This document shows, one piece after another, positions 1 through 49,209 of a DNA stretch of 64,000 nt. Location: assembly GCF_030913365.1 (NCBI RefSeq), contig NZ_CP133160.1, positions 2,456,001-2,520,000 of the forward strand, written 5' to 3'. Positions within the stretch are counted from its first letter, which is position 1; each line of letters opens with the position of its first letter. The translations under genes were made by a program, and so were the position numbers. The stretch is from Stenotrophomonas sp. 24(2023) (GTDB taxonomy: Bacteria > Pseudomonadota > Gammaproteobacteria > Xanthomonadales > Xanthomonadaceae). The notes beneath the pieces are model-generated. The model had not been told where the DNA came from and did not search any database. It was given only the letters and a program-made list of their open reading frames with translations.

Positions 1-381
1 GCGCGCGCTTTCGCGGAGCGTCTGCAGCACCAGGTCCTTGCTGGGCAGGTGCTCCAGGAAATTGCTCATGAACACCGCGTCCACGCTCTCGCTGGGGATC
101 GAACTGACGGCCGTGCACGATTCATTGATGATGTGGACGTCATCGTGGGCGAACCGGCGGATATCCGGATTGAGGTCCACGGCGATCTTGTTCGCCGCGG
201 GGATGTTGTTGATGAACTCGCAGTAGCCGGCCCCGATGTCGACAACGGTGTCGCTGGGCGCGACATAACGATTCAGGTAGCCGGTGCACAGTACTTTCCA
301 GATCCGGTTCTTGTTGGCCAGTTCCTCTTCCGGGAACCGGTGCTGGTAGAGAACATCTAGATCGAGATCAATATCGGGCAT
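1..381 (-). CDS. class I SAM-dependent methyltransferase, C-terminus cut by window edge
   Basis: Only the first 127 residues are in the window. They form the start of a Rossmann-fold methyltransferase. The glycine-rich motif I (VVDIGAGYC) lies at residues 46-54, the acidic turn expected to hold the SAM ribose (AVDLNP) at 67-72, and a post-motif segment FMSNFLEHL at 104-112. The ATG at 381 has AGGA a few bases upstream. The gene follows the large polytopic protein on the same strand after a 114-nt gap, so it is probably the next gene of the same glycan cassette. A role in O-methylating a surface sugar is an inference from this position; the substrate cannot be read from the visible part. Confidence 0.75.
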   Translation of the reverse strand, partial: MPDIDLDLDVLYQHRFPEEELANKNRIWKVLCTGYLNRYVAPSDTVVDIGAGYCEFINNIPAANKIAVDLNPDIRRFAHDDVHIINESCTAVSSIPSESVDAVFMSNFLEHLPSKDLVLQTLRESAR

Positions 382-495: not shown

Positions 496-2670
496 TCATG
501 CCAAAGCGTGGTTGCGGTCCGTCTCCTGTGTTGCTGCGATCAAGGACAGCAGCAGGCCACCGGCGAAGAGTACCGCGCCGAGCAGGTAGAACGCCTGCTG
601 CCCCGGCAGCAGGTGGCGGTCCAGTACGTAGGCCGTTGCCGCGACCACGATGTTTGCCGAGCAGATCACGTAGAACAGGGCGCTGCGCGTGCACCAGGCT
701 GCGGCCAGCACGGCCAGCTGCAGCATCAGCTGGCCGGCATAGGCGCCGGTGTTGATGGTGGTCGTGCCGCCCTCGAAGATGGCCGTCGTCCAGACCAGGA
801 TGAACAGCGCGGTGGTGATGACCATCTGCAGCAGCGAGGGCAGCACAGGCACGGGCATGCGTACACGCCGCCCCCGTGCGTACAGCACGGCCAGGCAGGG
901 AATCAACAGCAGGGGTGAGGCGAACCACAGGGAATGGAACGTGTGGAAGAAATCGTTGTCGATGAACTGCTTCCACGTGGTGGCATCATGCAGGTAGGTG
1001 ATGCGCACGGCATCGAGCGGCCCGGTGAAGGTGCCCTTGAACACGATGGCCAGGTTGTCGATGCGCGCGCAAAGCCAATCCCACGGGGTGACATGCCGGT
1101 AGGCATTGGCGATGGTCTGCAGTGCTCCTTCGCTGCTGATGGGCACCTGCCCGCCGAAATGCCATTTGATCAGCCGGTCTCCCGGCGGGTCGATGAATTT
1201 CTGGTAGGCAACCCAGGGCAGGTACAGGGCCAGCGCGACCGGCGCGCTGCGCAGCAGCAGCATGAAGCTCTGGCGGCGATGCCAGGCCAGGCTGGTCAAT
1301 GCCGCGCCGACCAGGAAGAACAGCGAGCCGCCATGTGACAGCAGCGCCATCGCCGAGGCGATGCCCGCCAGCCCCCACTGTCTGGGGGCACCCCGCGGTG
1401 GGAACAGGGCGATGAAGAAGATCAATGAGAACGCCGCTGCCAGCAGCTTGGGCCAGACATAGAGCGTGTTGAGCAGCATCAGGGGGGACAGGCACAGCGT
1501 GAACAGGGCGATGGCCTGCGCACGTCGGCCCATGAAACGCCCCAGCAGCGCTGCAAGCGGCAGCAGGACCAGAGCCTGTGCCCAGGTGGAAATGCCCTGG
1601 TAAACCAGCTCATGGCTGCCCGGCACCAGCGCGCGTACCAGCAGATAGGTACCCACCTGCAGGGGCGGCCGGTCGCTGCTGAGCCAATCGCCCACCATCG
1701 GCACGTCCAATGCCCCGCGCGCCAGCATTTCGCCGAACATCAGGGGCAGCCAGGCATCGGTGGACAGGTGCGGCCAGCGCAGAGCGGGGTCCCCGTTGGG
1801 GTGGCCATTCCAGGTGAACGGATAGAGGCCGATCCAGAGCACCAGCAACGACAGCGCGAGCACCGGCAGCAACGCTTTCTGCAGGCCTGCGATGTCTGCC
1901 ATCACAGGGCCCTGGCGCCGCCGGGCGAGGAGTGCCGCGGCGGGGAAGGGCAGCGCCAGTACCAGCAGGGCGGTTGTGCTGCCCAGCTGCGGCGACCTGA
2001 CATAGGCGATGAAGATGAGCAGCCACAGGCAACCGGCCGCCAGCATGCCCTGCAGCAAACGCTCCAGCGCAGGGCGGCGGGGACCGGGCAGGCACAGCGA
2101 CAAGGCCAGCAGCCATGCGTTGCCCACCACGATGGCCAGCAGCATCGGCAGCGCGTGCCGGGTGAAGGCGGCCGAGGCCGTTATGTTGGATGCGCCGAAT
2201 CCTGCCCAGCCGAACTTTTCCGTCGAGCGGTCATCGATCTGCAGGTAGAAGCCGCTGCGTGCGATATCGGCGGGTATTTCCAGCTGCACCCGCTCCCAGC
2301 GTTCCCTGGGCTGGTGCGTGGAAAAATCGAACCGGGCCTGTCCATCGCTGCCGACGGCGCTGACAGTCACCCCGGGCGTGGTGGGATAGCCGGCCAGCAT
2401 GACTTCAACGTGCTGCGTGCCCGGAGGGTAGGAGCCGGAGGTGATCGTACCGGTCCAGCCATCATCGCCTTCGCAGAAGGTGATGCGCCCTGTGACAGCA
2501 GGGTCGGGGGACAGGAACGGCGAATGCTCGGGCGTGCAGCCACCGTCCACGCGCAGTGCGGGATCGGTCGCTGCAGCGCAGCCGCCGAGCAGCAGCACGG
2601 CGGCGCACAACAGGGCCACCAGGAGGGGGCGCACGATGACAGCCAGCACGGACGGGCGGTTGCCGGCCAT
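496..2670 (-). CDS. large polytopic membrane protein, probable GT-C type glycosyltransferase
   Basis: The protein has 724 residues. A hydrophobic N-terminus (about 8-30) ends in LGGC with Cys31, which fits a lipobox. It is followed by a soluble segment of about 130 residues (to about 165), then a run of roughly a dozen hydrophobic segments. The loop around residues 290-340 (DAWLPLMFGEML, then DWLSSDRPPLQ) has the Asp and Arg-Pro-Pro-Leu pattern common in GT-C transferases that use polyprenyl-phosphate sugars. I do not recognise a named family. Its ATG lies one base after the stop of the DprE2-like gene, so the two are translationally linked. The most economical role is transfer of the cassette's lipid-linked pentose to a surface acceptor on the periplasmic side. 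That role, and the lipidation, are inferences. Confidence 0.78.
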   Translation of the reverse strand: MAGNRPSVLAVIVRPLLVALLCAAVLLLGGCAAATDPALRVDGGCTPEHSPFLSPDPAVTGRITFCEGDDGWTGTITSGSYPPGTQHVEVMLAGYPTTPGVTVSAVGSDGQARFDFSTHQPRERWERVQLEIPADIARSGFYLQIDDRSTEKFGWAGFGASNITASAAFTRHALPMLLAIVVGNAWLLALSLCLPGPRRPALERLLQGMLAAGCLWLLIFIAYVRSPQLGSTTALLVLALPFPAAALLARRRQGPVMADIAGLQKALLPVLALSLLVLWIGLYPFTWNGHPNGDPALRWPHLSTDAWLPLMFGEMLARGALDVPMVGDWLSSDRPPLQVGTYLLVRALVPGSHELVYQGISTWAQALVLLPLAALLGRFMGRRAQAIALFTLCLSPLMLLNTLYVWPKLLAAAFSLIFFIALFPPRGAPRQWGLAGIASAMALLSHGGSLFFLVGAALTSLAWHRRQSFMLLLRSAPVALALYLPWVAYQKFIDPPGDRLIKWHFGGQVPISSEGALQTIANAYRHVTPWDWLCARIDNLAIVFKGTFTGPLDAVRITYLHDATTWKQFIDNDFFHTFHSLWFASPLLLIPCLAVLYARGRRVRMPVPVLPSLLQMVITTALFILVWTTAIFEGGTTTINTGAYAGQLMLQLAVLAAAWCTRSALFYVICSANIVVAATAYVLDRHLLPGQQAFYLLGAVLFAGGLLLSLIAATQETDRNHALA

Positions 2671-2671
2671 G

Positions 2672-3403
2672 TCAGAGCTTGATCCTGCGGAACACGAATT
2701 CGGGAATGTTCTTGATGACCATCATGATGGCCCACCAGAAGCCCGGCAGGTACGCCACGGCCTTGCGCTTGCCGATGGCTTTCAGAATGCCCGCAGCGAC
2801 CTTGTCCGGGGTTGCCCAAAGCGCGCCCTTCTTGAAGGCCGCGGTCATCGGTGTATCGACGAAGCCGGGCTTGATCACCAGGACGTTCACGCCCAGAGGG
2901 CGCAGCCGCTGGCCCAGCCCGCTCAGGTATGCGGTGACGGCCGCCTTGGCACTGCCATACAGATAGTTGCTGGCACGGCCACGGTCACCGGCCACCGACG
3001 AGATCACCGCGAGTGTCGCACCATGCTGCAGGCGCTGCGCCAGCGCTGCCGCCAGCGCGATGGTGGAGGTGCCGTTGGTGGCGAACTCACGCAGGGACAG
3101 CTCGACCGAGGCATCGCAGGCCGCCTGGTCGGGCAGGGTGCCGTGCGCGATGAGCACGGTGTCGACACCGCCCAGCGCGTTCCACGCCGCATCGAGCAGC
3201 GCACCGTGTGCGCCTACATCGTTGACGTCGAGCACACCGTACTCGGCGCGCTGTGCGCCGCGCACCCGTAGATCGGCAGCGATGGCATCCAGGCGGCCGG
3301 CATTGCGACCCACCAGATAGATTGCAGCCGCACGGGTGGCATACAAACGGGCGACAGCCTCTGCAATCGCCGAGGTGGCGCCGATGATGAGGATCTTCTG
3401 CAT
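2672..3403 (-). CDS. short-chain dehydrogenase, DprE2-like (polyprenylphospho-keto-pentose reductase)
   Basis: This 243-residue NAD(P)-dependent short-chain dehydrogenase has its cofactor-binding turn near the N-terminus (IIGATSAIAEA, residues 5-15) and a catalytic YGSAK (YxxxK) near residues 153-157. In mycobacteria DprE2 reduces the 2-keto intermediate made by DprE1 to give polyprenylphospho-D-arabinose. The gene directly follows a DprE1-like gene, separated by 2 nt, which is the standard pairing. I chose the ATG at 3403, which gives the usual short N-terminus; an in-frame upstream start would lie inside the previous gene. The family assignment rests on the motifs plus the neighbour. SDR sequence alone would not fix the substrate. 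Confidence 0.85.
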   Translation of the reverse strand: MQKILIIGATSAIAEAVARLYATRAAAIYLVGRNAGRLDAIAADLRVRGAQRAEYGVLDVNDVGAHGALLDAAWNALGGVDTVLIAHGTLPDQAACDASVELSLREFATNGTSTIALAAALAQRLQHGATLAVISSVAGDRGRASNYLYGSAKAAVTAYLSGLGQRLRPLGVNVLVIKPGFVDTPMTAAFKKGALWATPDKVAAGILKAIGKRKAVAYLPGFWWAIMMVIKNIPEFVFRRIKL

Positions 3404-3405
3404 GC

Positions 3406-4719
3406 TTACTCCATCACCCGGCGCCAGAAGCCGGATGAGAATCGAGGGTCGATGAAGCGGGAGAATGCTTCCCACGCCGGGAATGCCTGGCGGAACAAGG
3501 CACCGGACATGCGGGCATCCTTGGCCGGGTAGACGGCACCGCCTGCTTCGCTGACGATGGCGTCCAGCCGGTCGAGCATCGTCAGCAGGCCCGGGCCGTC
3601 ATTGGGGAAATCCAGGGCCAGCGTGGTGCCGGGGCGCGGGAACGACAACAGGCCCGGCGAAGGCCGATCACCAAATTCCTTGAGCACGGCCAGGAACGAA
3701 CCGCGGCCGCTGCGTGCGATTTCCGCCAGCAGGGCGGCCGTTGCCTCGCGCGCATGCTGGGGGGGCAGGACGCACTGGTGCTGCAGGAAACCCCGTGGAC
3801 CGTACATGCGGTTCCAGTGGTTGATGCCATCAAGCGGGTAGAAATAGCTTTGGTAATGGGACAGGCGGCGTGCCTGCCGTGCCGGCTGCCGCCAGTAGTA
3901 GAGCGTGTTGAAGGGCCGCAGGGTCAGGCGGTTCACCAGCGAGACCGGGGGCACCACCGGCATGCTGCGGCGCGGTGCCGAACTGGGCGTGGCTGCAAGG
4001 GCGTCGCCGGGTGCATGGTCGCCGCGCAGGAAATGCCCGCGCCCCAGTTGCCGGCCACTGGCCAGGCAGTCGATCCAGGCGACGGTGTATTCGAAATCCG
4101 CTGCGGATGCGCGCGAGAGCGCGAAGAACTCGTCCAGGTTGCCGAAGCGGATCGATTCGGTGTCGATCCATGGGCCGGGCACACGCCGCAGCTGCAGTTC
4201 GGCCCAGGTGATGAAACCGGTCAGGCCCAGGCCGCCCAGTGTCGCGCTGAACAGGCCATCGTCATCGGCTGGCGACAGCCGCCGGCGCGATCCATCGCTA
4301 CGCAGCAGTTCCAGGCAACGCACGTGGTGGCCGAAGGTGCCGGCACGGTGGTGGTTCTTGCCATGCACGTCGTTGCCGATCGCACCGCCGATCGTGGCGT
4401 AGCGGGTACCCGGGGTGACGGGCAGGAACCAGCCCTGTGGCAGCGCGATGGCCAGGATGTCGGCCAGGGTGGCGCCGGATTCACAGCGCACGATGCCCGT
4501 GGCCGGATCAAAGGCGATGAAGCGGTCCAGCGCACCGCTGTGCAGCAGCGTACCGCCGGGGTTGAGGCAGCTGTCGCCATAGCTGCGGCCATTGCCATGT
4601 GGCAGCACGCTGCTGCCATCGGGCGGCAGGGGCAGGGCACCCCCACGGTCGTGTACGGGAATGATCTGCTGCTCGGCCCGGGGGTAGCGCCCCCAGGATT
4701 GGCCGGCCGCTGGGGTCAT
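3406..4719 (-). CDS. FAD-linked oxidase, DprE1-like (polyprenylphospho-ribose 2-oxidase)
   Basis: The protein has 437 residues and the vanillyl-alcohol-oxidase fold signature. The FAD loop HGNGRSYGDS lies at 41-50. The segment DVHGKNHHRAGTFG starts at about 117 and closely resembles the DIHGKNHH block of mycobacterial DprE1. A C-terminal AKDAR matches the DprE1 lysine region. DprE1 oxidises C2 of polyprenylphospho-ribose as the first half of epimerisation to arabinose. The Cys that covalent benzothiazinones attack in the mycobacterial enzyme (Cys387, from memory) aligns with Ala in TLALDFP here. The ATG at 4719 overlaps the preceding stop as ATGA, which decides the start over one nine codons upstream. 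It is cotranscribed with the HAD-UbiA gene before it and the reductase after it. Confidence 0.87.
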   Translation of the reverse strand: MTPAAGQSWGRYPRAEQQIIPVHDRGGALPLPPDGSSVLPHGNGRSYGDSCLNPGGTLLHSGALDRFIAFDPATGIVRCESGATLADILAIALPQGWFLPVTPGTRYATIGGAIGNDVHGKNHHRAGTFGHHVRCLELLRSDGSRRRLSPADDDGLFSATLGGLGLTGFITWAELQLRRVPGPWIDTESIRFGNLDEFFALSRASAADFEYTVAWIDCLASGRQLGRGHFLRGDHAPGDALAATPSSAPRRSMPVVPPVSLVNRLTLRPFNTLYYWRQPARQARRLSHYQSYFYPLDGINHWNRMYGPRGFLQHQCVLPPQHAREATAALLAEIARSGRGSFLAVLKEFGDRPSPGLLSFPRPGTTLALDFPNDGPGLLTMLDRLDAIVSEAGGAVYPAKDARMSGALFRQAFPAWEAFSRFIDPRFSSGFWRRVME

Positions 4720-6131
4720 ATCGCTGCCAGCACGATGAGCACGCACAGGCTGATGACGATCTGGCTGCCACGGTCCGTCGCGGCGAATACGATCGGGTCA
4801 TCATGCATGTCGCCGCGGTGGGAGACGATCCACATGCGGCTGATCCAGTACAGCAGGATCGGGCACAGCAGCCACAGCAGCTTGGGGTGGCCATACAGCT
4901 CCAGGCTTTCCGGGCTGTTGATGTACAACGCGAACACCAGCACCCCGATATAGCCGGCCGCCGCACCCAGTGACTGCACCAGCGGCAGGTCGGCAACGGC
5001 GTAGCCACGGCCGATGGCCATTTCCTTGCCGTTGGCCAGGGCCGAGGCCAGTTCGGTGTAGCGCTTGAGCATGGCCAGGCTGAGGAACACGAACATCGAG
5101 AAGGCCAGCAGCCAGAACGACAGTTCCGAATCGATCGCGATGGCACCGCCGATGATGCGTACGGTATAGAGGGCGGCCAGCAGCACCACATCGATCATGA
5201 CGATGCGCTTGAGCTTGAGCGAGTAGCTCAGGGTCATCACGTAGTAGCAGAGCAGCACGCCGGCGAAGGCGGGGCTGCACAGCAGGGCCAGCGCGAAGCC
5301 GGCCAGGGTGATCAACGGCGCCAGCAGCAGGCCGTGCAGCAGCGGCAGGGTGCCGGCGGCAAACGGCCGCTTGCGCTTGCGCGGATGCATGCGGTCCGGT
5401 GTCAGATCCAGCAGGTCGTTGAGCAGGTAGACGCCCGACGCGCACAGGCCGAAGGCCAGGAAGGCGATGCCGGCATCGATGATGGCCACCGGTTCCAGGA
5501 AGCGGTGGGCCGTCAGCAGGGGCACCAGCACCAGCAGGTTCTTCAGCCACTGGTAGACACGCAACGCCTTGAGCCAGGTCAGCAGCCCGCCATTCTGCGG
5601 GGGCAGGTGTGCCAGCACCTCGGTCTGCCGGGCGGCATCGCGGGCCAGCGCCGCGCCGTTGTTGACCACGATGGCCCCGCCGGCATGGGCCCAGACCTTC
5701 AGGTCGACGCGGCCATTGCCCATGTAGTCGAAACCACGCTCACCGAACCGGGCGGCCAGTGCCTCGCCCTTGTGGGAGCCGGACAGGTTGGTCTTGCCGT
5801 CGCTGGCCATCACCTCGTCGAACAGGCCCAGGTGATCGGCGATGGGTTGCACCAGCAGGCGGTCCGATGCGGTGCACAGCACCCGCGGGCGCTGCGGGGT
5901 GGTGCGCAGGATGTCCAGGACGCGTTCGTCGTAGGGCAGTGTTTCAGCCGGCAGCTGCACCCGGGTCGCCAGTTGGCGCTTGACGAAGGCTTTGCCCTTG
6001 AGCAGCCAGAACGGCAGCAGGAACACGTACAGCGGGTTGCGTGCCAGCAGGGCCAGCAACGATTCGTAGAGGATGTCCGAACGGAGCAGGGTGCCATCAA
6101 GATCGACACACAGGGGGCGTGATGCCGTCAC
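4716..6131 (-). CDS. HAD phosphatase domain fused to UbiA-family prenyltransferase
   Basis: The protein has about 471 residues. An N-terminal HAD domain (1-165) carries DLDGT (nucleophile D10, D12), TAS near 87-89, K121 or its neighbour in HKGEA, and a motif IV written GNGRVD. A polytopic UbiA domain (about 185-471) carries NDLLDLTPD at 238-246, the Mg-diphosphate motif, and WLKN at 195-198. In mycobacteria a UbiA enzyme transfers phosphoribose from PRPP to decaprenyl phosphate and a separate phosphatase removes the 5-phosphate. Here one polypeptide could do both. The start is a GTG at 6131 chosen because the HAD motif follows directly. It has no strong ribosome-binding site but overlaps the stop of a 14-codon leader ORF. 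Longer in-frame starts would run into the flippase gene. Confidence 0.84.
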   Translation of the reverse strand: MTASRPLCVDLDGTLLRSDILYESLLALLARNPLYVFLLPFWLLKGKAFVKRQLATRVQLPAETLPYDERVLDILRTTPQRPRVLCTASDRLLVQPIADHLGLFDEVMASDGKTNLSGSHKGEALAARFGERGFDYMGNGRVDLKVWAHAGGAIVVNNGAALARDAARQTEVLAHLPPQNGGLLTWLKALRVYQWLKNLLVLVPLLTAHRFLEPVAIIDAGIAFLAFGLCASGVYLLNDLLDLTPDRMHPRKRKRPFAAGTLPLLHGLLLAPLITLAGFALALLCSPAFAGVLLCYYVMTLSYSLKLKRIVMIDVVLLAALYTVRIIGGAIAIDSELSFWLLAFSMFVFLSLAMLKRYTELASALANGKEMAIGRGYAVADLPLVQSLGAAAGYIGVLVFALYINSPESLELYGHPKLLWLLCPILLYWISRMWIVSHRGDMHDDPIVFAATDRGSQIVISLCVLIVLAAI

Positions 6132-6172
6132 GGTGAAGCTGCCCCAGCCCGGAAGGATGCGCGGTACGGCAT
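6128..6172 (-). other. possible 14-residue leader ORF coupled to the HAD-UbiA gene
   Basis: An ATG at 6172 preceded by AGAGGG opens a 14-codon frame whose TGA (6130-6128) overlaps the GTG proposed for the HAD-UbiA gene as GTGA. The downstream start has no clear Shine-Dalgarno of its own, so translation coupling through this mini-ORF is plausible. It lies in the only sizeable gap of the cassette (6132-6255), which also holds a GC-rich hairpin near 6220-6250. The peptide looks unremarkable (MPYRASFRAGAASP). This is inference from spacing only. Confidence 0.3.
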
Positions 6173-6255
6173 GGGACCCTCTTCTGCTGCCATTGGATTC
6201 AGCGCGAATGATAAAGGAAGCCGCCTGCAGGCGCAGCGCGCAGGCGGGCTGCGGC

Positions 6256-7236
6256 TCATGGGGCGTGCCGCGGGCGGAAGCGGAGTTCCAGCAGTGCGGC
6301 CGAGAACATGCCGACCAGCACGGCCAGCCACAGGCTGGCCAAGCGGATGCCGATGGCCACGGCCAGCGCGGTGTCGGTCGGGACGCCACTGGCCGCCAGC
6401 ATCAGGACAATGGCCGCTTCGGTGGTGCCGACGCCCCCGGGGACGAAGGAGAGCGCGCCGACCAGCATGGCCAGGGGATAGATGCCCAGTGCCAGCGGCC
6501 ACGCAAGCGTGATGCCCTGCGCATGGCACAGCAGGGTGAAGGCCAGGGCTGTCAGCAGCCAGGCGAGCAGGCCCAGCAGGGTTCCCGGTGCCAGCACGCG
6601 TGGACGCAGCAAGGGGCCCAGGGCACTGGCACCCCCCACCAGAAAGTGCGCCAGGCGCCGTACCGGCAGTCCCGGCAGGTGTTCGATGGCGCGGTGGGTG
6701 CCACGGGCCAGGACGGGAAGGCATCCCATCGCCGCCAGGGCCAGCAGGATGCCCAGGATGATGGCAGCGAGCATGCCGAACACCGGCACCAGCGCGGCGG
6801 CACCCACGGCCATCGCGGTGATGACCAGCAGGTCCAGCGCACGCTCGAAGATGAAGGCCGTCAACGTCGTGGCCGGAGGAATTCCCTGCCAGTTGAAGTA
6901 GCGGATGCGCAGCAGTTCGCCGGCCTTGCCGGGCGAAGCGGTGAAGGCGAAGCCTGCCAGGTAGGCCAGCAGGCCCGGTGCCCAGCCGTGCAGCGGATGG
7001 CCCAGCGTGCCCAGCACCTGGCGCCAGCGCTGGTAACGTGCGATGTAGCTGGCCAGGACCAGCAGGCTGCAGGCTGCGAGCGGTGCGGCAAGGTCCAGCA
7101 GCCGTGACAGGATGTTGCGGTCGCGGTCCAGGTACCACAGGGCGGCCAGGTAGATGGCCGCGACGGCCAGCACCCAGCCCGCCGCGCGCCCCCGGCGGGC
7201 CGGCGTTGCCGGTGCCGGGGGCGTGCGATCCGTCAT
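6256..7236 (-). CDS. lysylphosphatidylglycerol synthase TM-domain family protein, flippase-like
   Basis: A 326-residue membrane protein with about eight hydrophobic segments and the family hallmark [12 protein letters not shown] about 60 residues from the C-terminus. An SPGKAGE element near residue 100 is also typical. Proteins of this family without the soluble MprF domain are often called flippase-like and occur in glycan clusters. Its ATG shares one base with the etfA stop (TGATG), so it is translationally coupled to etfBA, and it starts the cassette that continues with HAD-UbiA, DprE1-like and DprE2-like genes. Moving the polyprenyl-phospho-sugar across the inner membrane is a reasonable inference. 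The family as a whole has no single proven substrate. Confidence 0.82.
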
Positions 7237-8174
7237 CAGAGTGCCGCTTCCAGCTCCGGCAGCAGGGTGAACAGATCCCCCACCAGGCCGATGTCGGCGA
7301 TCTCGAAGATCGGCGCGTCGCCGTCCTTGTTGATCGCGACAATGGTGCCGGCGTCCTTGATGCCGGTCAGGTGCTGGATGGCACCGCTGATGCCCACGGC
7401 CACGTACAGTTCCGGCGCGATGATCTTGCCGGTCTGGCCGACCTGCAGCTCATTGGGCACGTAGCCGGCATCCACGGCGGCGCGCGAGGCGCCCACGGCG
7501 GCACCGAGCTTGTCGGCCAGCTGGTAGATCACCTTGAAGTTTTCTTCCGAGCCGACGCCACGGCCACCGGAGACCACGCGCTTGGCGCTCTGCAGGTCCG
7601 GGCGGTCGCTGCTGGCCGCGGCCAGGCCGACGAAGCGGGTGTGGGCCGGCAGGGCCGCATCCACGCTGATCGCTTCCACGCTGGCGTTGCCGCCCTGGGC
7701 CGCTTCCGGCCAGGAGGCGGTGCGCACGGTGGCGACCACGGTCTGGTCGGCCGGGGCCTCCACGGTGATGATGGCGTTGCCGGCATAGATCGGGCGCTTG
7801 AAGGTATGGCTGCCTTCCACGGCCATCAGGTCCGAGACCTGGGCCACGCCCAGCAGGGCGGCCACGCACGGCATCAGGTCCTTGCCGAAGGTGGTGGACG
7901 GGCCGAACACGTGGCTGTAGCCGGCGGCGGCCTTGGCGATCTGCGGGGCCAGCACCTGTGCGACCGGGTGCGCATTGGCGGCATTGGCCACGGTCCGCAC
8001 CTGGGTCACGCCGCTGATCTTCGCCGCTTCGGCTGCGGCTGCGGCCGGGTCGGCGGCCAGCACCAGCACGTCGATCTGCGCGCCGCTGATGGCCGCGGCC
8101 GCACTGACGGTCTTGGCGGTGGCGGCGTTGAGCTTGCCGTCGTGGTGTTCTGCGATGACGAGAACCTTGCTCAT
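7236..8174 (-). CDS. etfA: electron transfer flavoprotein alpha subunit
   Basis: This 312-residue EtfA binds the FAD that carries electrons from acyl-CoA and related dehydrogenases to ETF-ubiquinone oxidoreductase. The C-terminal FAD domain is clear, with [13 protein letters not shown] near 200-212 and the family signature [19 protein letters not shown] near 265-283. Length is normal. The start codon shares one base with the etfB stop (TAATG), so the two subunits are made from one message. In Xanthomonas the etf pair marks the conserved edge of the LPS cluster, and here too it separates a glycan cassette from rmlBACD. Confidence 0.97.
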
Positions 8175-8920
8175 TACAGCAACCCCTTCTGCTTGAGTGC
8201 GGCCACCAGTTCGGCGGCGTCCTTGACCATCACGCCCTTGCTGCGCTTGGACGGCGCGGCGTAGTGGGTGATCTTCAGGGTATCGGCGGCATCAACGCCC
8301 AGCTCGGCCAGCGGCAGGGTTTCCAGCGGCTTGGCCTTGGCCTTCATGATGTCCGGCAGCTTGATGAAGCGCGGCTCGTTCAGGCGCAGGTCGGTGGTGA
8401 CCACGGCCGGCAGGTCCACTTCCAGCGTTTCCAGGCCGGCATCGACTTCGCGCACCACCGTGGCCTTGCCGTCGGCGATGTCCAGCTTGCTGGCGAAGGT
8501 CGCCTGCGGGCGGCCCCAGAGCGTGGCCAGCATCTGGCCGGTCTGGCTGGCGTCGTCGTCGATGGCCTGCTTGCCGAGGATGACCAGTTCCGGCTGTTCC
8601 TTCTCGATCAGCTTGAGCAGGGCACGGGCGGCGGTCAGCGGCTGGATGGCTTGGTCGGTGACGACGTGGATGGCGCGGTTGGCACCCATGGCCAGGCCGT
8701 TGCGCAGGTGGGCCTGGGCGTCGGCCGGGGCGATGGTAGCGACCACCACCTCGCTGGCGATGCCCTTGTCGCGCAGGCGCAGGGCTTCTTCCAGGGCGAT
8801 TTCATCGAAGGGGTTGGGGGACAGCTTGACGCCGTCGGTGACCACGCCGGAACCGTCCGGCTTGACCTGAATGCGGACGTTGTAGTCCACCACGCGCTTG
8901 TACGCGACGAGGATTTTCAT
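8174..8920 (-). CDS. etfB: electron transfer flavoprotein beta subunit
   Basis: A 248-residue EtfB that opens with [17 protein letters not shown], as is typical. It includes the AMP-binding/recognition region ([19 protein letters not shown], about 116-134) found in bacterial beta subunits. It forms the heterodimer with the downstream alpha subunit. The gene is first in its transcription unit, which runs leftward through etfA and possibly into the glycan cassette, and it is divergent from rmlB. A TAGAAT hexamer upstream on the minus strand is the best promoter candidate. Confidence 0.97.
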
Positions 8921-9000: not shown

Positions 9001-9186
9001 GCGGGCTTGGGGCAACCATGCGAATGCGTATGGTTTTGCTGCGGCGCGGCAGCCGGTGTGCTCCCCCCGGGGTGTCGTTCACGTCCAGCAGGCAGTCGTG
9101 AAGACGGCTGGCATGTATGCTGTGCCGCTGTGTCGGGGTGCCTGCGGGCACGCCAGGAATGCTTTCAGAGAACAGGAGAACAGGTA

Positions 9187-10242
9187 GTGCCCACTTGGCT
9201 TGTCACCGGCGGTGCCGGATTCATTGGCGGTAACTTCGTTCTCGAAGCCGTCGCCCGCGGCATCAAGGTCGTGAACCTGGATGTGCTCACCTACGCCGGC
9301 AACCTGAAGACCCTGTCCAGCCTGGACGGCAACCCGGACCACGTGTTCGTGCAGGGCGACATCGGCGACCGCGCCCTGGTGGCCCGCCTGCTGGCCGAAC
9401 ACCAGCCCGATGCCGTGCTGAATTTCGCCGCCGAAAGCCACGTCGATCGTTCCATCGATGGGCCGGGCGCATTCATCCAGACCAACGTGGTCGGCACCCT
9501 GGGCCTGCTGGAAGCCGTGCGCGACCATTGGAAGGGCCTGCCGGCCGAACAGGGGGCGGCTTTCCGCTTCCTGCACGTGTCCACCGACGAGGTGTACGGC
9601 ACCCTGGGTGAAACCGGCAAGTTCAGCGAAACCACCCCGTATGCGCCCAATTCGCCGTACTCGGCGTCCAAGGCGGCCTCGGACCATCTGGTGCGTGCGT
9701 TCCACCACACCTACGGGCTGCCGGTGCTGACCACCAACTGCTCCAACAACTACGGCCCGTACCACTTCCCCGAGAAGCTGATCCCGCTGGTGATCGCCAA
9801 GGCGCTGGCCGGTGAGCCGCTGCCGGTGTACGGCGATGGCAAGCAGGTGCGCGACTGGCTGTTCGTCACCGACCATTGCGAGGCGATCCGCACCGTGCTG
9901 GCCAAGGGCCAGGTCGGGGAGACCTACAACGTCGGCGGCAATTCGGAAAAGCAGAACATCGAGGTGGTGCAGGCCATCTGCGCGCTGCTCGATGCGCGCC
10001 GCCCGCGCGCCGATGGCCAGCCGCGCAGCAGCCAGATCACCTACGTGGCCGATCGCCCCGGCCATGACCGCCGCTATGCGATCGATGCCTCCAAGCTGAA
10101 GAACGACCTGGGCTGGGAACCGGCCTACACCTTCGAGCAGGGCATCGCCTTCACCGTGGACTGGTACCTGGACAACCAGGACTGGGTCAACGGCGTGCTC
10201 GACGGCAGCTATCGCCTGCAGCGCATCGGCACCGCGGTCTGA
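9187..10242 (+). CDS. rmlB: dTDP-glucose 4,6-dehydratase
   Basis: A 351-residue extended SDR that catalyses the second step of dTDP-L-rhamnose synthesis. It has GGAGFIG at 8-14 for NAD, STDEVYG containing the active-site Thr-Asp-Glu, and YSASK as the catalytic YxxxK. The GTG at 9187 is preceded by AGGAGAACAG and gives the usual N-terminus right before the NAD motif; a longer frame back to 9007 has no family support. It is the first gene of rmlBACD, whose members overlap or sit within 14 nt. The product feeds rhamnose-containing O-antigen or other surface glycan. Confidence 0.97.
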
Positions 10243-10256
10243 GACCAGGAGAGAAC

Positions 10257-11144
10257 ATGACCCAACGCAAAGGCATCATCCTGGCCGGGGGCTCCGGCAC
10301 CCGCCTGTACCCGATCACCAAGGGCGTCAGCAAGCAGCTGCTGCCGGTGTATGACAAGCCGATGATCTACTACCCGCTCAGCGTGCTGATGCTGGCGGGC
10401 ATCCGCGAAGTGCTCATCATCAACACCCCGCACGAACAGGCCCTGTTCCAGCAGCTGCTGGGCGACGGCTCGCAGTGGGGCATGGACATCCAGTACGCCG
10501 TGCAGCCCAGCCCGGACGGGCTGGCCCAGGCCTACCTGATCGGCCGCGATTTCGTGGCCGGCAAGCCGAGCTGCCTGGTGCTGGGTGACAACATCTTCCA
10601 TGGCCATGGCCTGCGCGAGGTGCTCAAGCGCGCCGACGAGCGCGTGGACGGCTCCACCGTGTTCGGCTACTGGGTGAATGACCCGGAGCGTTACGGCGTG
10701 GCCGAGTTCGACAACAGCGGCAAGGTGATCGACCTGGTGGAGAAGCCGGAGAACCCGCGCTCCAACTACGCTGTGACCGGCCTGTATTTCTACGACGGCC
10801 ATGCCAGCGACTACGCGGCCGAACTGAAGCCGTCGCCGCGTGGCGAACTGGAGATCACCGATCTCAACAAGCGCTACCTGGCCGAGGGCAACCTGCATCT
10901 GGAAGCGCTGGGCCGCGGTTATGCCTGGCTGGATACCGGCACTCACCAGTCGCTGCTGGAAGCGTCCAACTTCATCGAGACCATCCAGACCCGCCAGGGC
11001 CTGCAGGTCTGCTGCCCGGAGGAAATCGCCTTCGGCAAGGGCTGGATCAGCGCCGAACAGCTGGAAGCGCTGGCCGCACCGCTGATCAAGAATGGCTATG
11101 GCCAGTACCTGCACAAGCTCGCCCTGCGTGGAGTCGTTCCGTGA
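10257..11144 (+). CDS. rmlA: glucose-1-phosphate thymidylyltransferase
   Basis: A 295-residue nucleotidyltransferase that makes dTDP-glucose from dTTP and glucose-1-phosphate. The N-terminal signature GGSGTRLYP at 11-19, followed by a conserved Lys-Gln-Leu-Leu-Pro, identifies it, and length is normal. It starts 14 nt after rmlB with GGAGAG as ribosome-binding site, and its TGA overlaps the rmlC GTG (GTGA). Feedback inhibition by dTDP-rhamnose is known for the family. Confidence 0.97.
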
Positions 11145-11713
11145 AAGTGATTGAAACCAAGTTGCCCGGCTGCGTGGTGATCGAGCCGGCCGTGTTCGGC
11201 GATGCCCGCGGTTATTTCTTTGAAACCTGGAACGCCGAGCGTTTCGCGGCGCAGGGCTTGCCGGACCGCTTCGTGCAGAGCAACGTCTCCACCTCGGCCC
11301 AGGGCGTGCTGCGTGGCCTGCATTACCAGTGGCCGCGCCCGCAGGGCAAGCTGGTCAGCGTGCTTGAAGGCGAGGTGTATGACGTGGCCGTGGACATCCG
11401 CCGCGGCTCGCCGACCTTCGGCCAGTGGGAAGCGGTGGTGCTCAGTGCAGAGAACAAGAAGCAGTTCTGGATTCCGGAAGGCTTCGCCCACGGATTTGCC
11501 GTGCTGTCCGAGCGTGCGGTGTTCAGCTACCTGTGCACCGAGGTCTACCTGAAGGACTTCGATGCCGGCGTGCGCTGGAACGATGCCGACATCGCGGTGG
11601 ACTGGCCGGTGAGTGCGCCGACCCTGTCGGCCAAGGACGAGAACGCGCCGTTCCTGAAGGATATCGCCGAAGACCGCCTGCCGGTCTACATCGCTGCACA
11701 GGGCGCGCCATGA
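11141..11713 (+). CDS. rmlC: dTDP-4-dehydrorhamnose 3,5-epimerase
   Basis: A 190-residue cupin epimerase, third enzyme of the rhamnose pathway. The substrate-binding LRGLHYQ near residue 60 contains the catalytic His, and a downstream [10 protein letters not shown] block is conserved. Translation starts at a GTG that overlaps the rmlA stop, and the gene ends in an ATGA overlap with rmlD. This overlap chain implies strict coupling of the three enzymes. Confidence 0.97.
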
Positions 11714-12615
11714 CCGTGCTGGTCTTCGGCGGCAACGGCCAGGTCGGCCAGGAGCTGCTGCGCGCGCTGGCCCCGCTGGGGCCGGTGGTGGCCACCACCC
11801 GCAGTGGCCAGCTGCCCGACGGCAGCGCCTGCGAGGTGGCCGACTTCGGCCAGCCCGACAGCCTGCCGGCACTGCTGGATCGCCTGCAGCCGTCGGTGGT
11901 GGTCAATGCCGCGGCCTACACCGCCGTGGACCGTGCCGAACAGGACGTGGAGGCCGCGTTCGCGGCCAATGCGCAGGCGCCGGGCGTGATCGCGCGCTGG
12001 TGTGCGGCGCATGGCGTGCCGTTCGTGCATTACTCCACCGACTACGTGTTCGATGGCCAGGGCAGTGCGCCCTACCGCGAAGACGAAGCGACCGCACCGC
12101 TGGGCGTGTACGGCACCAGCAAGCGTGATGGCGAGGAAGCGGTGCGCGCTGCCGGTGGCCGCCACCTGATCTTCCGCACGGCGTGGGTGTATGCCTCGCA
12201 TGGTGCCAACTTCCTGCGCACGATGCTGCGCGTGGGGGCCGAACGTGACCAGCTGCGGGTGGTGGCCGACCAGATCGGCACGCCGACGCCGGCCGCGCTG
12301 ATCGCCGATGTCACCGCGCAGGTGCTGCAGCATCCCGGGCAGTTGTCGGGTACCTGGCACCTGACCGCCAGCGGGCAGACCAGCTGGCATGGCTTCGCCG
12401 AAGCGATCTTTGCCCAGGCCCATGCGGCCGGCGTACTGGCCCGCGTGCCGGCCGTGGAGGCGATTCCCAGCAGCGAGTACCCGACGCCGGCGCAGCGCCC
12501 GGCCTGGTCCGTGCTGGACAACCGCAAGCTGCAGCAGGATGCCGGCATCGTGCTGCCGGCCTGGCAGGACGGGCTGGCGCGGGTGATCGCCGAGGTCGCC
12601 GCGGCCAACGGCTGA
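11710..12615 (+). CDS. rmlD: dTDP-4-dehydrorhamnose reductase
   Basis: A 301-residue SDR that finishes dTDP-L-rhamnose. It has GGNGQVGQ at 8-15 for NADPH, YSTDYVFDG near 103-111, and YGTSK as the YxxxK pair. The ATG overlaps the rmlC stop. It is the last gene of rmlBACD; after 118 nt comes a membrane protein gene in the same direction, and the GC-rich inverted sequence near 12640-12662 between them has no T-run. Confidence 0.97.
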   Translation: MTVLVFGGNGQVGQELLRALAPLGPVVATTRSGQLPDGSACEVADFGQPDSLPALLDRLQPSVVVNAAAYTAVDRAEQDVEAAFAANAQAPGVIARWCAAHGVPFVHYSTDYVFDGQGSAPYREDEATAPLGVYGTSKRDGEEAVRAAGGRHLIFRTAWVYASHGANFLRTMLRVGAERDQLRVVADQIGTPTPAALIADVTAQVLQHPGQLSGTWHLTASGQTSWHGFAEAIFAQAHAAGVLARVPAVEAIPSSEYPTPAQRPAWSVLDNRKLQQDAGIVLPAWQDGLARVIAEVAAANG

Positions 12616-12669
12616 CGGCATGCATGCAGCGGGGCGCGCACGCGGTATGACCGCGGCGCGTCCGTTCCT

Positions 12670-12675
12670 TTGACA
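12670..12675 (+). promoter_or_regulatory. possible -35 element before the 456-residue membrane protein gene
   Basis: A consensus TTGACA stands 59 nt upstream of the ATG at 12734. The matching -10 position, 17 nt downstream, is GC-rich (CCACCA) and unconvincing. The gene may therefore have its own weak promoter or simply be read through from rmlD. Confidence 0.25.
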
Positions 12676-12733
12676 GCCCGCTGCGATTGGCCCCACCATC
12701 GCGCGGCGCATTCATCGTCATCGGGAAGAAAGC

Positions 12734-14104
12734 ATGAGCAACGCTGTTCCAGCGCCTGCTGCAAAGAGCGGCCTGTCACCACTGGCTTTGGCGGTGGGCG
12801 TGGGAGTGCTCGCATTGCTGGTGCGCCTGCTCTACATCCATTTCTTCAGCACGCCCATGCCGTTCTGGGACCAGTGGGATGGCGAGGGCGCGACCGCGCT
12901 CAAGCCGTGGCTGGATGGGACCCTGCAATGGAACACACTGCTCACGCCGCATAACGAGCACCGGATCCTGCCGACCCGCCTGGTGACCTTGGCCAGCTAC
13001 CTGGTGACCGGGCAGTGGAACAACGTGTATGAAGCGCAGGTCAGTGCCGTGGTGTACTGCTTCATTCCGGCCTTGCTGGTCTGGTATGCGCTGCGCGATG
13101 CGGGTACTGCAGCCGGCCGCTGGCTGATGGTGCCGGCCGCCGTGCTGGTGTCGGTGCTGCCCTTTGCCCGCGAGAACTTCCTGGTCGGCTTCCAGAGCCA
13201 GTTCTATTTCCTGATCCTGTCGAGCCTGCTGGCCATCGCCCTGGTGGCCAGGCACCACCAGAGCCTGCCGGCGCTGTTTGCCGCAGTGGTGCTGAGCCTG
13301 CTGGCCAGCGTGACCCTGGCATCGGGCATGCTCACTGCCGTAGCCGTCGGCATCACCTGCGTGCTGGCCTGCCTGCTGCTGCCCGGGCGACGCCTGCCGG
13401 CGCTCGTGGCCACCGGCGCGCTGGCGGCCATCGCGCTGCTGGCCTACTGCACGCTGCCGGTCGTGGAAGGCCACAGCATGCTGCGTGCCCAGAACCTGGG
13501 CGAAGTGCTGCTGGCGGCGACGCATACGCTGGCCTGGCCGGCGCGCTCGAACTGGGTGGTTGTCATCGTGTGGCTGCCCAGCGTAGTGATGATCGGGCGC
13601 ATGCTGGTGCGCCGCAGCGCCAGCCGCACCGACCTGTTGATCGCCGGGCTGTGCATCTGGTCCGCACTGCAGGGGCTGGCCATCGCCTATGGGCGCGGCC
13701 ATGACGCCATGCGCGTTCCGGCGTCGCGCTATACGGAACTGTTCGTACCCGGCCTGTTCGGCAATGCATGGTTTGCGCTTCAGCTCTGGCGGCTGGTCCC
13801 TGCGCCGTCGCGGCTGCGTACGGCCGCGCGTACCGGCGTGGTGCTGTTCGCGGTGTTGTTCGCCGGTGGCCTGCTGGGGCAGGTTCCGAAGGATTTCAGC
13901 AAGATGCGCCAGTTCAAGGCCGATTGCATGCTGCAACAGGACAACGTCGTGCGTTACCTGCGCAGCGGTGATCCCCATGCGCTGGATGTCGGCGAGTTCG
14001 AGTTGCCGTATCCCGACGCGGCCCGCCTCAAGGCACAGCTGGATGACCCGGTGATCCGGCGGATACTGCCGGTGTCCATCGACAGCGCGGCAGGGCCGCC
14101 ATAG
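12734..14104 (+). CDS. polytopic membrane protein of unknown function, GT-C-like
   Basis: The protein has 456 residues. After a short cytoplasmic N-terminus comes a hydrophobic segment (about 15-38), then an acidic loop FWDQWDGEG near 44-52 and HNEHRILPTRL near 75-85, then about ten further hydrophobic segments. An Asp-rich first external loop is the layout of GT-C glycosyltransferases, but no family motif settles it. The ATG is preceded by GGGAAGAAAGC. It lies between rmlD and the convergent xanB gene, where the polysaccharide locus usually varies between strains, so a role in O-antigen or another surface glycan is an inference. It could equally be an unrelated membrane protein inserted there. 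Confidence 0.75.
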   Translation: MSNAVPAPAAKSGLSPLALAVGVGVLALLVRLLYIHFFSTPMPFWDQWDGEGATALKPWLDGTLQWNTLLTPHNEHRILPTRLVTLASYLVTGQWNNVYEAQVSAVVYCFIPALLVWYALRDAGTAAGRWLMVPAAVLVSVLPFARENFLVGFQSQFYFLILSSLLAIALVARHHQSLPALFAAVVLSLLASVTLASGMLTAVAVGITCVLACLLLPGRRLPALVATGALAAIALLAYCTLPVVEGHSMLRAQNLGEVLLAATHTLAWPARSNWVVVIVWLPSVVMIGRMLVRRSASRTDLLIAGLCIWSALQGLAIAYGRGHDAMRVPASRYTELFVPGLFGNAWFALQLWRLVPAPSRLRTAARTGVVLFAVLFAGGLLGQVPKDFSKMRQFKADCMLQQDNVVRYLRSGDPHALDVGEFELPYPDAARLKAQLDDPVIRRILPVSIDSAAGPP

Positions 14105-14130
14105 CGGCCTGCCGGCGTGCCGTCCGGCGC

Positions 14131-15537
14131 TCAGCTTCGGCCGTAGGTGTCTTCGAAGCGTACGATGTCGTCTTCGCCCAGGTAGCTGCCGGACTGCACT
14201 TCGATCAGTTCCAGCGGCAGCTTGCCCGGGTTGCGCAGGCGGTGGGTCACCCCCAGCGGGATGTAGGTACTCTGGTTTTCGCCCAGCAGGATCACCTCGT
14301 TGCCGCGGGTGACTTCGGCCGTGCCGCTGACCACCACCCAATGCTCGGCACGGTGGTGGTGCATCTGCAGGCTGAGCGTGCCGCCAGGTTTGACCGTGAT
14401 GCGCTTGACCTGGAAGCGCTCACCATTGTCGATCGAGTCGTAAGCACCCCACGGACGGTAGACCTTGCGGTGCCAGGTCGCCTCGCTGCGGCCTTCGGCC
14501 TTCAGGCGGGCCACCACTTCCTTGACCTCCTGCATGCGGTCGGCCTTGCCGACCAGCACGGCATCGTCGGTTTCGACAACGATGACATCGTCCAGCCCGA
14601 CCAGTGCCACCAGGCGCTGGCCATAGGCGTAGGTGTTGCGGCAGTCGATGGCGATCACATCCCCCTGGTGGGCGTTGCCGTTGCCATCCTGCTGCGACAC
14701 ATCGCGCAGCGCCGTCCATGAGCCGACATCGTTCCAGCCGGCATCCAGCGGCACCACCACCGCATCGGCGGTCTTTTCCATCACGGCGTAGTCGATGGAA
14801 TCCGATGGCACGGCGGCGAAGGCCTCCTTGTCCAGGCGGGTGAAGTCGGCATCACGGCGTGCCCCTTCCCAGGCCTGGCGGCAGGCCGCCAGCATCTGCG
14901 GGTTGAAGCGCCCCAGTTCTTCCAGGTAGCGCGATGCCTTGAACAGGAACATGCCACTGTTCCAGTAATACTGCCCGCTGGCGACGTAGCCGGTTGCGGT
15001 GGCCAGGTCGGGCTTCTCGACGAAGCGCTCGACCGCGCGCACGCCCTGGCCGTCGGCAGCCTTGATGTAGCCGTAGCCGGTTTCCGGGCCGGTCGGAACG
15101 ATGCCGAATGTCACCAGCTTGCCAGCCTCGGCCGCGCCGGCCGCGGCCTGCACGGTCGCGCGGAAAGTGGCTTCGTCGGTGATCACATGGTCCGAAGGCA
15201 GCACCAGCAGCAACGCATCGCCCTCCTGGCGGCTGGCTTCCAGTGCAGCCACTGCAATCGCCGGGGCCGTATTGCGGCCGATCGGTTCGAGGATGATCGC
15301 GGCGGGTTCCGCGCCGACCTGCTGCAACTGTTCGGCGGCAACGAAACGGTGTTCCTCGTTGGCGATGACCAGCGGCCCGCCGGCGGCGATGGGCGCCACC
15401 CGCTGCCAGGTGGCCTGCAGCATGGTCACCGCACCGGCCAGGGGCAGGAACTGCTTCGGGTAGGCTTCGCGCGACAGCGGCCACAGGCGGGTGCCGGAGC
15501 CGCCGGACAGGATCACAGGCTGGACGGTACTGGTCAT
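14131..15537 (-). CDS. xanB: mannose-1-phosphate guanylyltransferase / mannose-6-phosphate isomerase
   Basis: A 468-residue bifunctional enzyme of the XanB/AlgA/ManC type. The N-terminal nucleotidyltransferase shows GGSGTRLWP at 12-20 and makes GDP-mannose. The C-terminal cupin isomerase (about 350-465) has the RPWGAYDS start and a histidine-rich MHHHRAEHW metal site. Length is standard. It is followed upstream on the same strand by xanA, 14 nt away. Unlike the arrangement I know from Xanthomonas, where rml genes and xanAB run together, here they converge on the 456-residue membrane protein gene. Confidence 0.96.
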
Positions 15538-15551
15538 CGGGCAGGTTCCAC

Positions 15552-16898
15552 TCAGGCCTTCAGCAGGGCGGCGATCTCATCGGTACGGGCCTGCATCAGC
15601 GCCGCATCGCCGCGTGCTTCGACGTTCAGCCGCAGCAGCGGTTCGGTATTGGAACTGCGCAGGTTGAAGCGCCAGTCGCCGAAATCGGCGCTGATGCCAT
15701 CGGTGGAATCCAGCACCGGCGACCGGGCGGCGAAGTGCTCCATCACGCGGGCGACGGCGGCCTTGGCATCGGCCACCTTGAAGTTGATCTCGCCGCTGCA
15801 CGGATAGGCCGCCATGCGGTCTTCGACCCAGTCGGCCAGGGAGCGGCCGCTTTCGGAGACCAGCTGCGCGATCAGCAGCCAGGGAATCATGCCCGAGTCG
15901 GCATAGGCGAATTCGCGGAAATAGTGGTGGGCGCTCATCTCGCCGCCGTAGACGGCATCTTCGGCGCGCATCTTTTCCTTGATGAAGGCATGGCCGCTCT
16001 TGCACTGCACCGGCACGCCACCGGCCTGTTCGACCATCTCGACGGTGTTCCAGACCAGGCGCGGGTCGTGCACGATCTTCCCGCCCGGGTTGCGGGCCAG
16101 GATGGCCTTGGCCAGCAGGCCGACCAGGTAATAGCCTTCGATGAAGCGGCCGGTATGGTCGAAGAAGAAGCAGCGGTCGAAATCGCCATCCCAGGCGATG
16201 CCGAAGTCGGCGCCATGCGCGCGCACGGCGTCAGCCGTGGCGGCGCGGTTTTCCGGCAGCAGCGGGTTGGGGATGCCATTGGGGAAGCTGCCATCGGGTT
16301 CGTGGCAGATGCGGATGAAGTCGAACGGCAGGTGCGGCGCGAGCAGGTCGACGATCGCACCGGCCCCGCCGTTGCCCGCGTTGACCACCAGCTTGAGCGG
16401 CTTGAGCGCAGCGGTGTTCACATAGGACAGCAGGTGCGCGATGTAGGCGGCCTTGTCGTGCTGGGCGGACTGCCCGGCGCGCAGCGGCGCGGCCGGGGCG
16501 TCATCGGCGGCCACCACGTCGGAGATCGCGAACAGGCCGGTATCGGAGCTGATCGGGCGGGCCTGCTCCTTGACCAGCTTCATGCCGTTGTAGTCCATCG
16601 GGTTGTGGCTGGCGGTGACCATCACCCCGCCTGCCGCGCCCAGGTGGTCGGTCTGGAAATAGACTTCCTCGGTGCCGCACAGGCCGATATCGATGATCTC
16701 GCGGCCGGCGCCGCGCAGGCCTGCGGCCAGGGCGTCCTGCAGGGCCGGGCTGGTCAGGCGCACATCGTGGCCCAGGACCACCTTGCCGGGCTGCAGCTGG
16801 GCCGCCAACGCTTTGCCGATGCGGCGGGCCAGGTCCTCATTGAGTTCCTCGGGAACACGGCCACGGATATCGTAGGCCTTGAACGCGGGCAGGGGCAT
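15552..16898 (-). CDS. xanA: phosphomannomutase / phosphoglucomutase (XanA, SpgM, AlgC type)
   Basis: A 448-residue alpha-D-phosphohexomutase that interconverts the 6- and 1-phosphates of glucose and mannose. It supplies both the dTDP-rhamnose and the GDP-mannose branches present in this window. The phosphoserine loop TASHNP has its Ser at 97, the Mg-binding loop DGDFDRC lies near 240, and the sugar-binding [10 protein letters not shown] near 315. S. maltophilia orthologues have been called SpgM. It is the first gene of a two-gene unit with xanB and is divergent from scoA. Length and motifs leave little doubt about the family; substrate preference is inferred. Confidence 0.95.
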
Positions 16899-20544: not shown

Positions 20545-20596
20545 TTTCCGGCAATCTCCGCCGCCACGGCAAACCGGCCGGGTGATACCCTGGGCC

Positions 20597-49018: not shown

Positions 49019-49209
49019 TCAATCGTCATTTTGATTCTGTTCATCCCGCAGTAGCCGTCTGGTGCCGCGTCAGGATGCATGCCGCTGCGCGCCGTCCGGA
49101 AAACCCCGCAGTAAATCACGCGAATAACGCCCTCTGGGGACGTTGGACCACGCGGTCCAGCGCTGGCGTTGCTTTGCCTGAAACCAGTCCAATACAAGGA
49201 GCCGTATCG

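Follow-up and report, generated by a model that had tools for sequence, protein, structure and literature searches.

What does an arabinofuranose pathway resembling that of mycobacteria do in the O-antigen locus of a Gram-negative bacterium? The question is raised by a 64,000-nucleotide stretch of Stenotrophomonas sp. 24(2023) (contig NZ_CP133160.1; hereafter the window), which covers positions 2456001-2520000 of a single-contig 4.52 Mb genome. An earlier note on this DNA described five genes at 496-7236 as a complete route to a polyprenyl-phospho-arabinofuranose. Open reading frames and Pfam/NCBIfam scans confirm the five genes on the minus strand, their order and their domain calls; the frames are open and contain no internal stops. 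Completeness does not hold. The operon extends beyond position 496, where the window edge cuts it, and continues with genes for a methyltransferase, a short-chain dehydrogenase/reductase (SDR), an amine-oxidase-fold flavoprotein (AO) and a GtrA protein. On balance, the five genes are best read as half of an operon, the half next to etf. This operon would make a lipid-linked pentose donor, process it via the SDR and AO and attach it to an O-polysaccharide exported by an ABC transporter.

Enzymes of the arabinofuranose branch

The gene at 4716-6131 (minus strand; likely GTG start at 6131) encodes a fusion of a HAD phosphatase (PF12710) and a UbiA-family polyprenyl-phosphate phosphoribosyltransferase (PPPRS; PF01040); the protein matches PRK08238 at 681 bits and has the motifs DxDGT, NDxxDxxxDRxHPxKRxRPxAAG and KRxxE. 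VDLDGT is invariant in 14 sequences, giving the N-terminal HAD domain the catalytic aspartate of ORF15-type PPPRS. N238, D239, D242 and D246, which form the PPPRS motif NDxxDxxxD, and R357 and E360 are invariant across 14 relatives. By motif position rather than by alignment, these residues correspond to those mutated in Citrobacter ORF15. NDxxDxxxD mutants of ORF15 have no detectable in vitro activity, Arg and Glu mutants retain some activity, and a HAD Asp mutant accumulates the 5-phosphate form while still forming a little product (Kelly et al. 2024, PMC11127046).

The UbiA domain groups with the transferases that use phosphoribosyl pyrophosphate (PRPP). It scores 158 bits against the PRPP-type family NF008978 (below its cut-off of 207), 46 against the prenyltransferase family NF009523, 35 against heme O synthase and 19 against UbiA (4-hydroxybenzoate transferase). 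Its identity is 34% to a Mycobacterium tuberculosis fragment and 19-21% to the CyoE and UbiA of the same genome; the latter two pair together in a tree (support 0.995) and the window domain stands apart. Grouping with other prenyltransferases, which the earlier note had named as fatal to its assignment, is therefore not what is found.

The next two genes, also on the minus strand, encode a DprE1-like FAD oxidase (putative polyprenyl-P-ribofuranose 2-oxidase; 3406-4719, likely ATG start at 4719, overlapping the HAD-UbiA stop as ATGA) and a DprE2-like 2-ketoreductase of the SDR type (2672-3403, likely ATG start at 3403), which has a YGSAK motif. The DprE1-like protein matches solved DprE1 (4aut) at E 5e-81 and retains HGKNHH and AKDAR; an alanine is aligned with the benzothiazinone-target cysteine, presumably C387 in solved DprE1. 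It scores 374 bits against the NCBIfam equivalog NF053785 (cut-off 500). The DprE2-like protein scores 178.9 bits against the equivalog NF053786 (cut-off 250) and passes the PRK07102 cut-off of 267 with 322.7 bits. Because both fall below the NCBI equivalog cut-offs, they are DprE-like by sequence and not equivalogs by that rule; with this proviso the identities proposed for them are supported. A limited search finds no phage DprE1 at E 1e-20.

Together, the predicted activities fit a route from PRPP through polyprenyl-P-ribofuranose to the arabinofuranose (Araf). HAD-UbiA, DprE1 and DprE2 are adjacent in all 25 related loci, 15 from the genus and 10 from the family, which were picked for carrying DprE1 or HAD-UbiA; this adjacency is beyond chance. 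Where a source is named, the closest relatives of HAD-UbiA, at about 90% identity or above, come mostly from Stenotrophomonas. By homology, the first reactions are those of the mycobacterial decaprenyl-phospho-arabinose pathway (Rv3806c, DprE1, DprE2). In contrast to mycobacteria, the operon has a HAD domain instead of Rv3807c, divergent DprE1 and DprE2 proteins, and an extra SDR and AO; carrier and acceptor are expected to differ as well.

An extension by SDR and AO

Beyond the window edge, coordinates are those of locus L002, from which 16000 is subtracted to give window positions. The S-adenosylmethionine-dependent methyltransferase gene has its 5' part in the window (1-381, minus strand) and is whole at L002 15710-16381. 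Downstream of it lie the genes for an epimerase of the extended SDR type (14736-15680), AO (13397-14704; PRK07233, 549 bits), GtrA (12996-13400), a 574-aa membrane protein (11205-12929) and a GDSL hydrolase (10456-11208).

The SDR, AO and window-type GtrA occur together in 20 of the 25 loci, in one block with the three core genes. The other five are of a short form, in which the retrieved sequence contains no member of this trio.

Co-occurrence ties the two extra enzymes to this core. Among 61 congeneric genomes, that of the strain included, DprE1 gives 22 matches, 16 of them full-length after six weak partial ones are dropped. AO and SDR are each present in 13, the same 13 genomes, all within the 16 DprE1-positive ones (hypergeometric 8.5e-11, not corrected for relatedness). 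In a class-wide sample of 369 genomes, queried for AO and DprE1 only (with the Burkholderia dolosa AO and with a DprE1 alignment, respectively), 73 have DprE1; AO occurs in 15, every one of them DprE1-positive (7.9e-12). AO and DprE1 lie at most 5 kb apart in 12 of these 15 and on different contigs in three.

Gene order was compared in 80 named AO loci, the best of 226 relatives. UbiA is found in 62, DprE1 in 65, DprE2 in 67, SDR in 74 and GtrA in 75; where the locus is at least 19 kb long (54 loci), UbiA, DprE1, DprE2 and SDR are all present in 50. The full set of six is present in 60 of these loci, 48 of which show the order UbiA-DprE1-DprE2-SDR-AO-GtrA. The same order is seen in all seven PLSDB plasmid records with AO at E 1e-60, which come from Burkholderia stagnalis, Rhizobium (four), Agrobacterium salinitolerans and Rhodobacteraceae SC52. 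The SDR and AO belong to the DprE1 pathway, and AO is nested within it. Since the SDR, AO and GtrA share one block with the core genes in most loci, polyprenyl-P-Araf is probably an intermediate here. The interpretation in the earlier note is partly supported.

Some distant loci weigh against this dependence. DprE1 is not seen in 15 of the 80 named AO loci, four of them long and 11 shorter. Among the long ones, AO is next to a methyltransferase gene in L074 and L103, where SDR is missing; L093 combines SDR, AO and GtrA, with UbiA, DprE1 and DprE2 not seen; L088 is without UbiA and DprE1 and keeps DprE2. The shorter ones include L078, L101 and L105, which cover 10 kb upstream of AO, and L070, which covers 10 kb downstream. 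L101 and L105 have SDR-AO-GtrA, and UbiA and DprE1 are missing from the upstream stretch covered; these two genes may lie elsewhere in the genome.

L101 and L105 come from Sedimenticola and a proteobacterial metagenome-assembled genome (MAG). The AO-type flavoprotein and methyltransferase genes without SDR or pentose genes (L074 9989-12011, L103 9238-11296) come from Thiomargarita and an alphaproteobacterial MAG. In L022 (8555-10792) the SDR and AO seem at first to be fused, which would favour joint action; the fusion is rejected, as the SDR part runs out of frame near residue 237. The SDR has no close viral relative in a limited search.

It has already been published that gene sets of this kind add pentofuranoses to O-antigens; those for Araf include DprE1/DprE2, and Xanthomonas has more elaborate ones (PMC11127046). 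The idea put forward in the earlier note is to that extent not novel. Periplasmic addition of pentofuranose has been known since 2024. In the literature searched, from which subscription journals were mostly absent, no paper describes this extension or assigns its product.

Proposed product and competing explanations

The pathway would start with the UbiA domain, transferring 5-phosphoribose from PRPP to undecaprenyl phosphate (und-P), and with the fused HAD domain, removing the 5-phosphate. The DprE1- and DprE2-like enzymes would invert C2 to give und-P-D-Araf, which the SDR epimerase and AO of the long form would convert further. GtrA would flip the donor, with the PF03706 protein possibly helping, and the GT-C enzyme would move the pentose in the periplasm onto the finished polysaccharide. 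Families and motifs argue for the first two steps, and nesting and gene order for the dependence of the third on the second; we infer the chemistry of the third step, the product, the flip and the acceptor.

Because L-xylose and D-arabinose are C4 epimers, a flavin mutase and a C4 epimerase would turn und-P-D-Araf into und-P-L-xylopyranose. The simplest third step apparent to us for the two enzymes is a flavin-dependent furanose/pyranose mutase step by AO, followed by C4 epimerisation by a GalE-like SDR; the neighbouring methyltransferase may O-methylate the product. The leading hypothesis, held tentatively and with the odds against it, is that UbiA-DprE1-DprE2-SDR-AO-GtrA is a conserved, in part plasmid-borne route to und-P-L-xylose, a rare side-chain sugar. 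It would serve O-antigens of Stenotrophomonas, Xanthomonas and Ralstonia whose side chains are L-xylose or 3-O-methyl-L-xylose. The O8 O-antigen of Stenotrophomonas maltophilia is described as three rhamnoses with 3-O-methylxylose, that of Xanthomonas campestris pv. begoniae, in the title of its report, as a 'partially L-xylosylated L-rhamnan', and beta-L-xylose in the pyranose form is described for Ralstonia solanacearum. Among the matches listed for the B. dolosa AO (120 of 7068 homologues), names include Burkholderia, Paraburkholderia, Cupriavidus, Dyella, Massilia, Pseudomonas and Ralstonia pickettii DTP0602, and there is no R. solanacearum. Fold searches with AO do not separate mutase from oxidase or desaturase; PF03275, the GLF domain of UDP-galactopyranose mutase, is not among its matches and has no match in the genome of the strain.

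The SDR, which has the motifs TGAAGLVG and YTDTK, might instead be a C3 epimerase like Citrobacter ORF13, a single SDR that converts ribofuranose to xylofuranose on the lipid (PMC11127046). The product would then be another pentofuranose (xylofuranose, or lyxofuranose, which is so far unseen), with AO aiding by redox chemistry. Motifs and family matches do not fix which carbon is epimerised. ORF13 suffices alone, and no DprE1/DprE2 is described with it, whereas the SDR here accompanies AO as well as DprE1/DprE2; a C3 epimerase is unlikely. The short-form loci, in each of which GtrA comes right after DprE2, recall a simpler scheme: plain decoration with D-Araf from und-P-D-Araf, as the earlier note proposed, the SDR and AO serving an unrelated sugar of the same locus. 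DprE1/DprE2 homologues are tied to Araf glycans (PMC11127046), and SDR-AO-GtrA stands with no UbiA or DprE1 in view in the distant loci L101, L105 and L093. Such nesting would be surprising for an independent pathway, however: the genus and class samples contain no AO genome that lacks DprE1, the genus sample likewise contains no SDR genome that lacks it, and seven plasmids share one order of the six genes. Plain Araf decoration is accordingly judged unlikely.

Action of AO (and the SDR) on the polyprenyl chain of the carrier, for instance as a desaturase or reductase, would agree with the best fold and sequence matches of AO, which are phytoene desaturases, and with a few distant AO genes that lie beside a methyltransferase without SDR or pentose genes (L070, L074, L103). 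It leaves unexplained why AO accompanies DprE1/DprE2 and an SDR resembling sugar epimerases, and has only a slim chance of being right. Placement of the pentose on type IV pilin or another protein, which the earlier note entertained, has a precedent in Pseudomonas paraeruginosa, where a similar gene set glycosylates pilin with D-Araf (PSPA7_6245-6251 and TfpW; PMC12369383, PMC11127046). That system shares the UbiA-DprE1-DprE2 logic in a Gram-negative organism; it has a separate phosphatase, whereas that of the present operon is fused, and its GT-C enzyme, TfpW, is encoded within the pilin allele. Five pilin-domain matches occur in the genome. At the main pilin locus (L136), the one that gave a usable gene context, PilB- and PilC-type genes flank the pilin pair, with PilS, PilR and PilD further out (Pfam); no GT-C gene lies beside the major pilin there. 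The operon, moreover, is inside a lipopolysaccharide (LPS) locus and its GT-C enzyme bears a domain resembling a carbohydrate-binding module (CBM). Pilin as the acceptor is thus weakened, and a protein target is very improbable.

In a range of proteobacteria, an Araf branch like that of mycobacteria is thus followed by two more enzymes. Should these make L-xylose, a sugar on the surface of bacteria associated with plants and hospitals would have a pathway readable from genomes and open to tests of its single genes. Such a pathway would also predict which O-antigens bear pentose side chains.

Transport, transfer and the O-antigen locus

Within the pathway, the donor module is constant and the transferase varies. 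Median identity within the genus is 85-90% for HAD-UbiA, DprE1, DprE2, SDR and AO (89% for etfA), 67% for PF03706 and 55% for GtrA. A GT-C of the window family occurs in only 2 of the 15 genus loci, and the methyltransferase in 6 of 25, always with the long form. A kept donor and an exchanged transferase is the picture expected for serotype change.

The gene at 6256-7236 (minus strand) had been called a flippase. It does encode a membrane protein of family PF03706 (LPG_synthase_TM; 123 bits); the flippase role is doubtful. PF03706 is an optional part, found in 15 of 25 loci. GtrA occurs in all 25 (window type in 20, a divergent one behind DprE2 in the five short-form loci) and is therefore the constant transporter candidate. 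Among the operon proteins scanned no MATE-family flippase is matched; the membrane candidates are PF03706 and GtrA. Rv3789 of the mycobacterial pathway is, we assume, also a GtrA family member. In the literature it appears as a proposed small membrane exporter and is SMR-like (PMC11127046).

The gene at 496-2670 (minus strand) encodes a polytopic protein of 724 aa with no family match in Pfam or NCBIfam. It has one transmembrane helix, a CBM-like beta-sandwich (about 34-161) and a GT-C core (about 263-690). The GT-C fold, as anticipated in the earlier note, is seen with VIA and not with Foldseek, which matches no GT-C at E-values up to 0.001. The three-component systems of Citrobacter youngae O1 and O2 (PMC11127046) share the HAD-UbiA synthase with the same essential motif, the option of an SDR epimerase, a GT-C with a CBM and an ABC-exported O-polysaccharide. 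Unlike them, the operon has DprE1/DprE2 with SDR and AO, and GtrA and PF03706 in place of a MATE transporter; the CBM-like domain is near the N-terminus of the GT-C, and C-terminal in Citrobacter ORF12.

Two further apparently polytopic proteins without Pfam or NCBIfam match, encoded at window 12734-14104 and L002 11205-12929, may be extra GT-Cs; the latter, the 574-aa membrane protein, has no profile relation to the GT-C family (probability 0.6%).

The etf edge of a polysaccharide locus proves to be the right description of the site. On the minus strand, etfB (8174-8920), etfA (7236-8174) and the genes for the PF03706 protein, HAD-UbiA, DprE1-like, DprE2-like and 724-aa proteins are tightly packed; etfB and etfA are the conserved housekeeping flank, and etfB, matched in 11 of the 15 same-genus loci, is 93-96% identical there. 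Facing the operon on the plus strand are, in turn, a cysteine/methionine-metabolism (metB-type) gene, wzm, wzt with a Wzt_C domain, a methyltransferase gene, WbsX, RgpF and a gene for a 785-aa protein without Pfam match. Flanking of the LPS locus by metB and etfA is described in xanthomonads (PMC3071791); this is a metB-etfA O-antigen locus of the ABC-transporter (Wzm/Wzt) type. The site, the ABC transporter with its Wzt_C domain and the CBM-like domain of the GT-C point to O-polysaccharide as the acceptor. The wxc clusters of Xanthomonas share the chromosomal site and ABC-transporter genes; in X. campestris B100 the side branches consist of FucNAc and require wxcK and wxcN (PMC4878081), not the present module.

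Divergent from etf, at 9007-12615 on the plus strand, lie rmlB-rmlA-rmlC-rmlD for dTDP-L-rhamnose supply, their functions read by eye from the translations. They point to a rhamnose-containing backbone, and the O-polysaccharide of the strain is probably rhamnose-rich.

Across rml from the LPS locus, the window contains a gene for a 766-aa protein with WbsX and RgpF domains (18421-20721); on the same side are a phosphomannomutase-family gene (15552-16898) and a ManC-type gene (14131-15537). Farther on, 49075-56745 encodes a 2556-aa trimeric autotransporter adhesin with a YadA head, stalk repeats and an ESPR.

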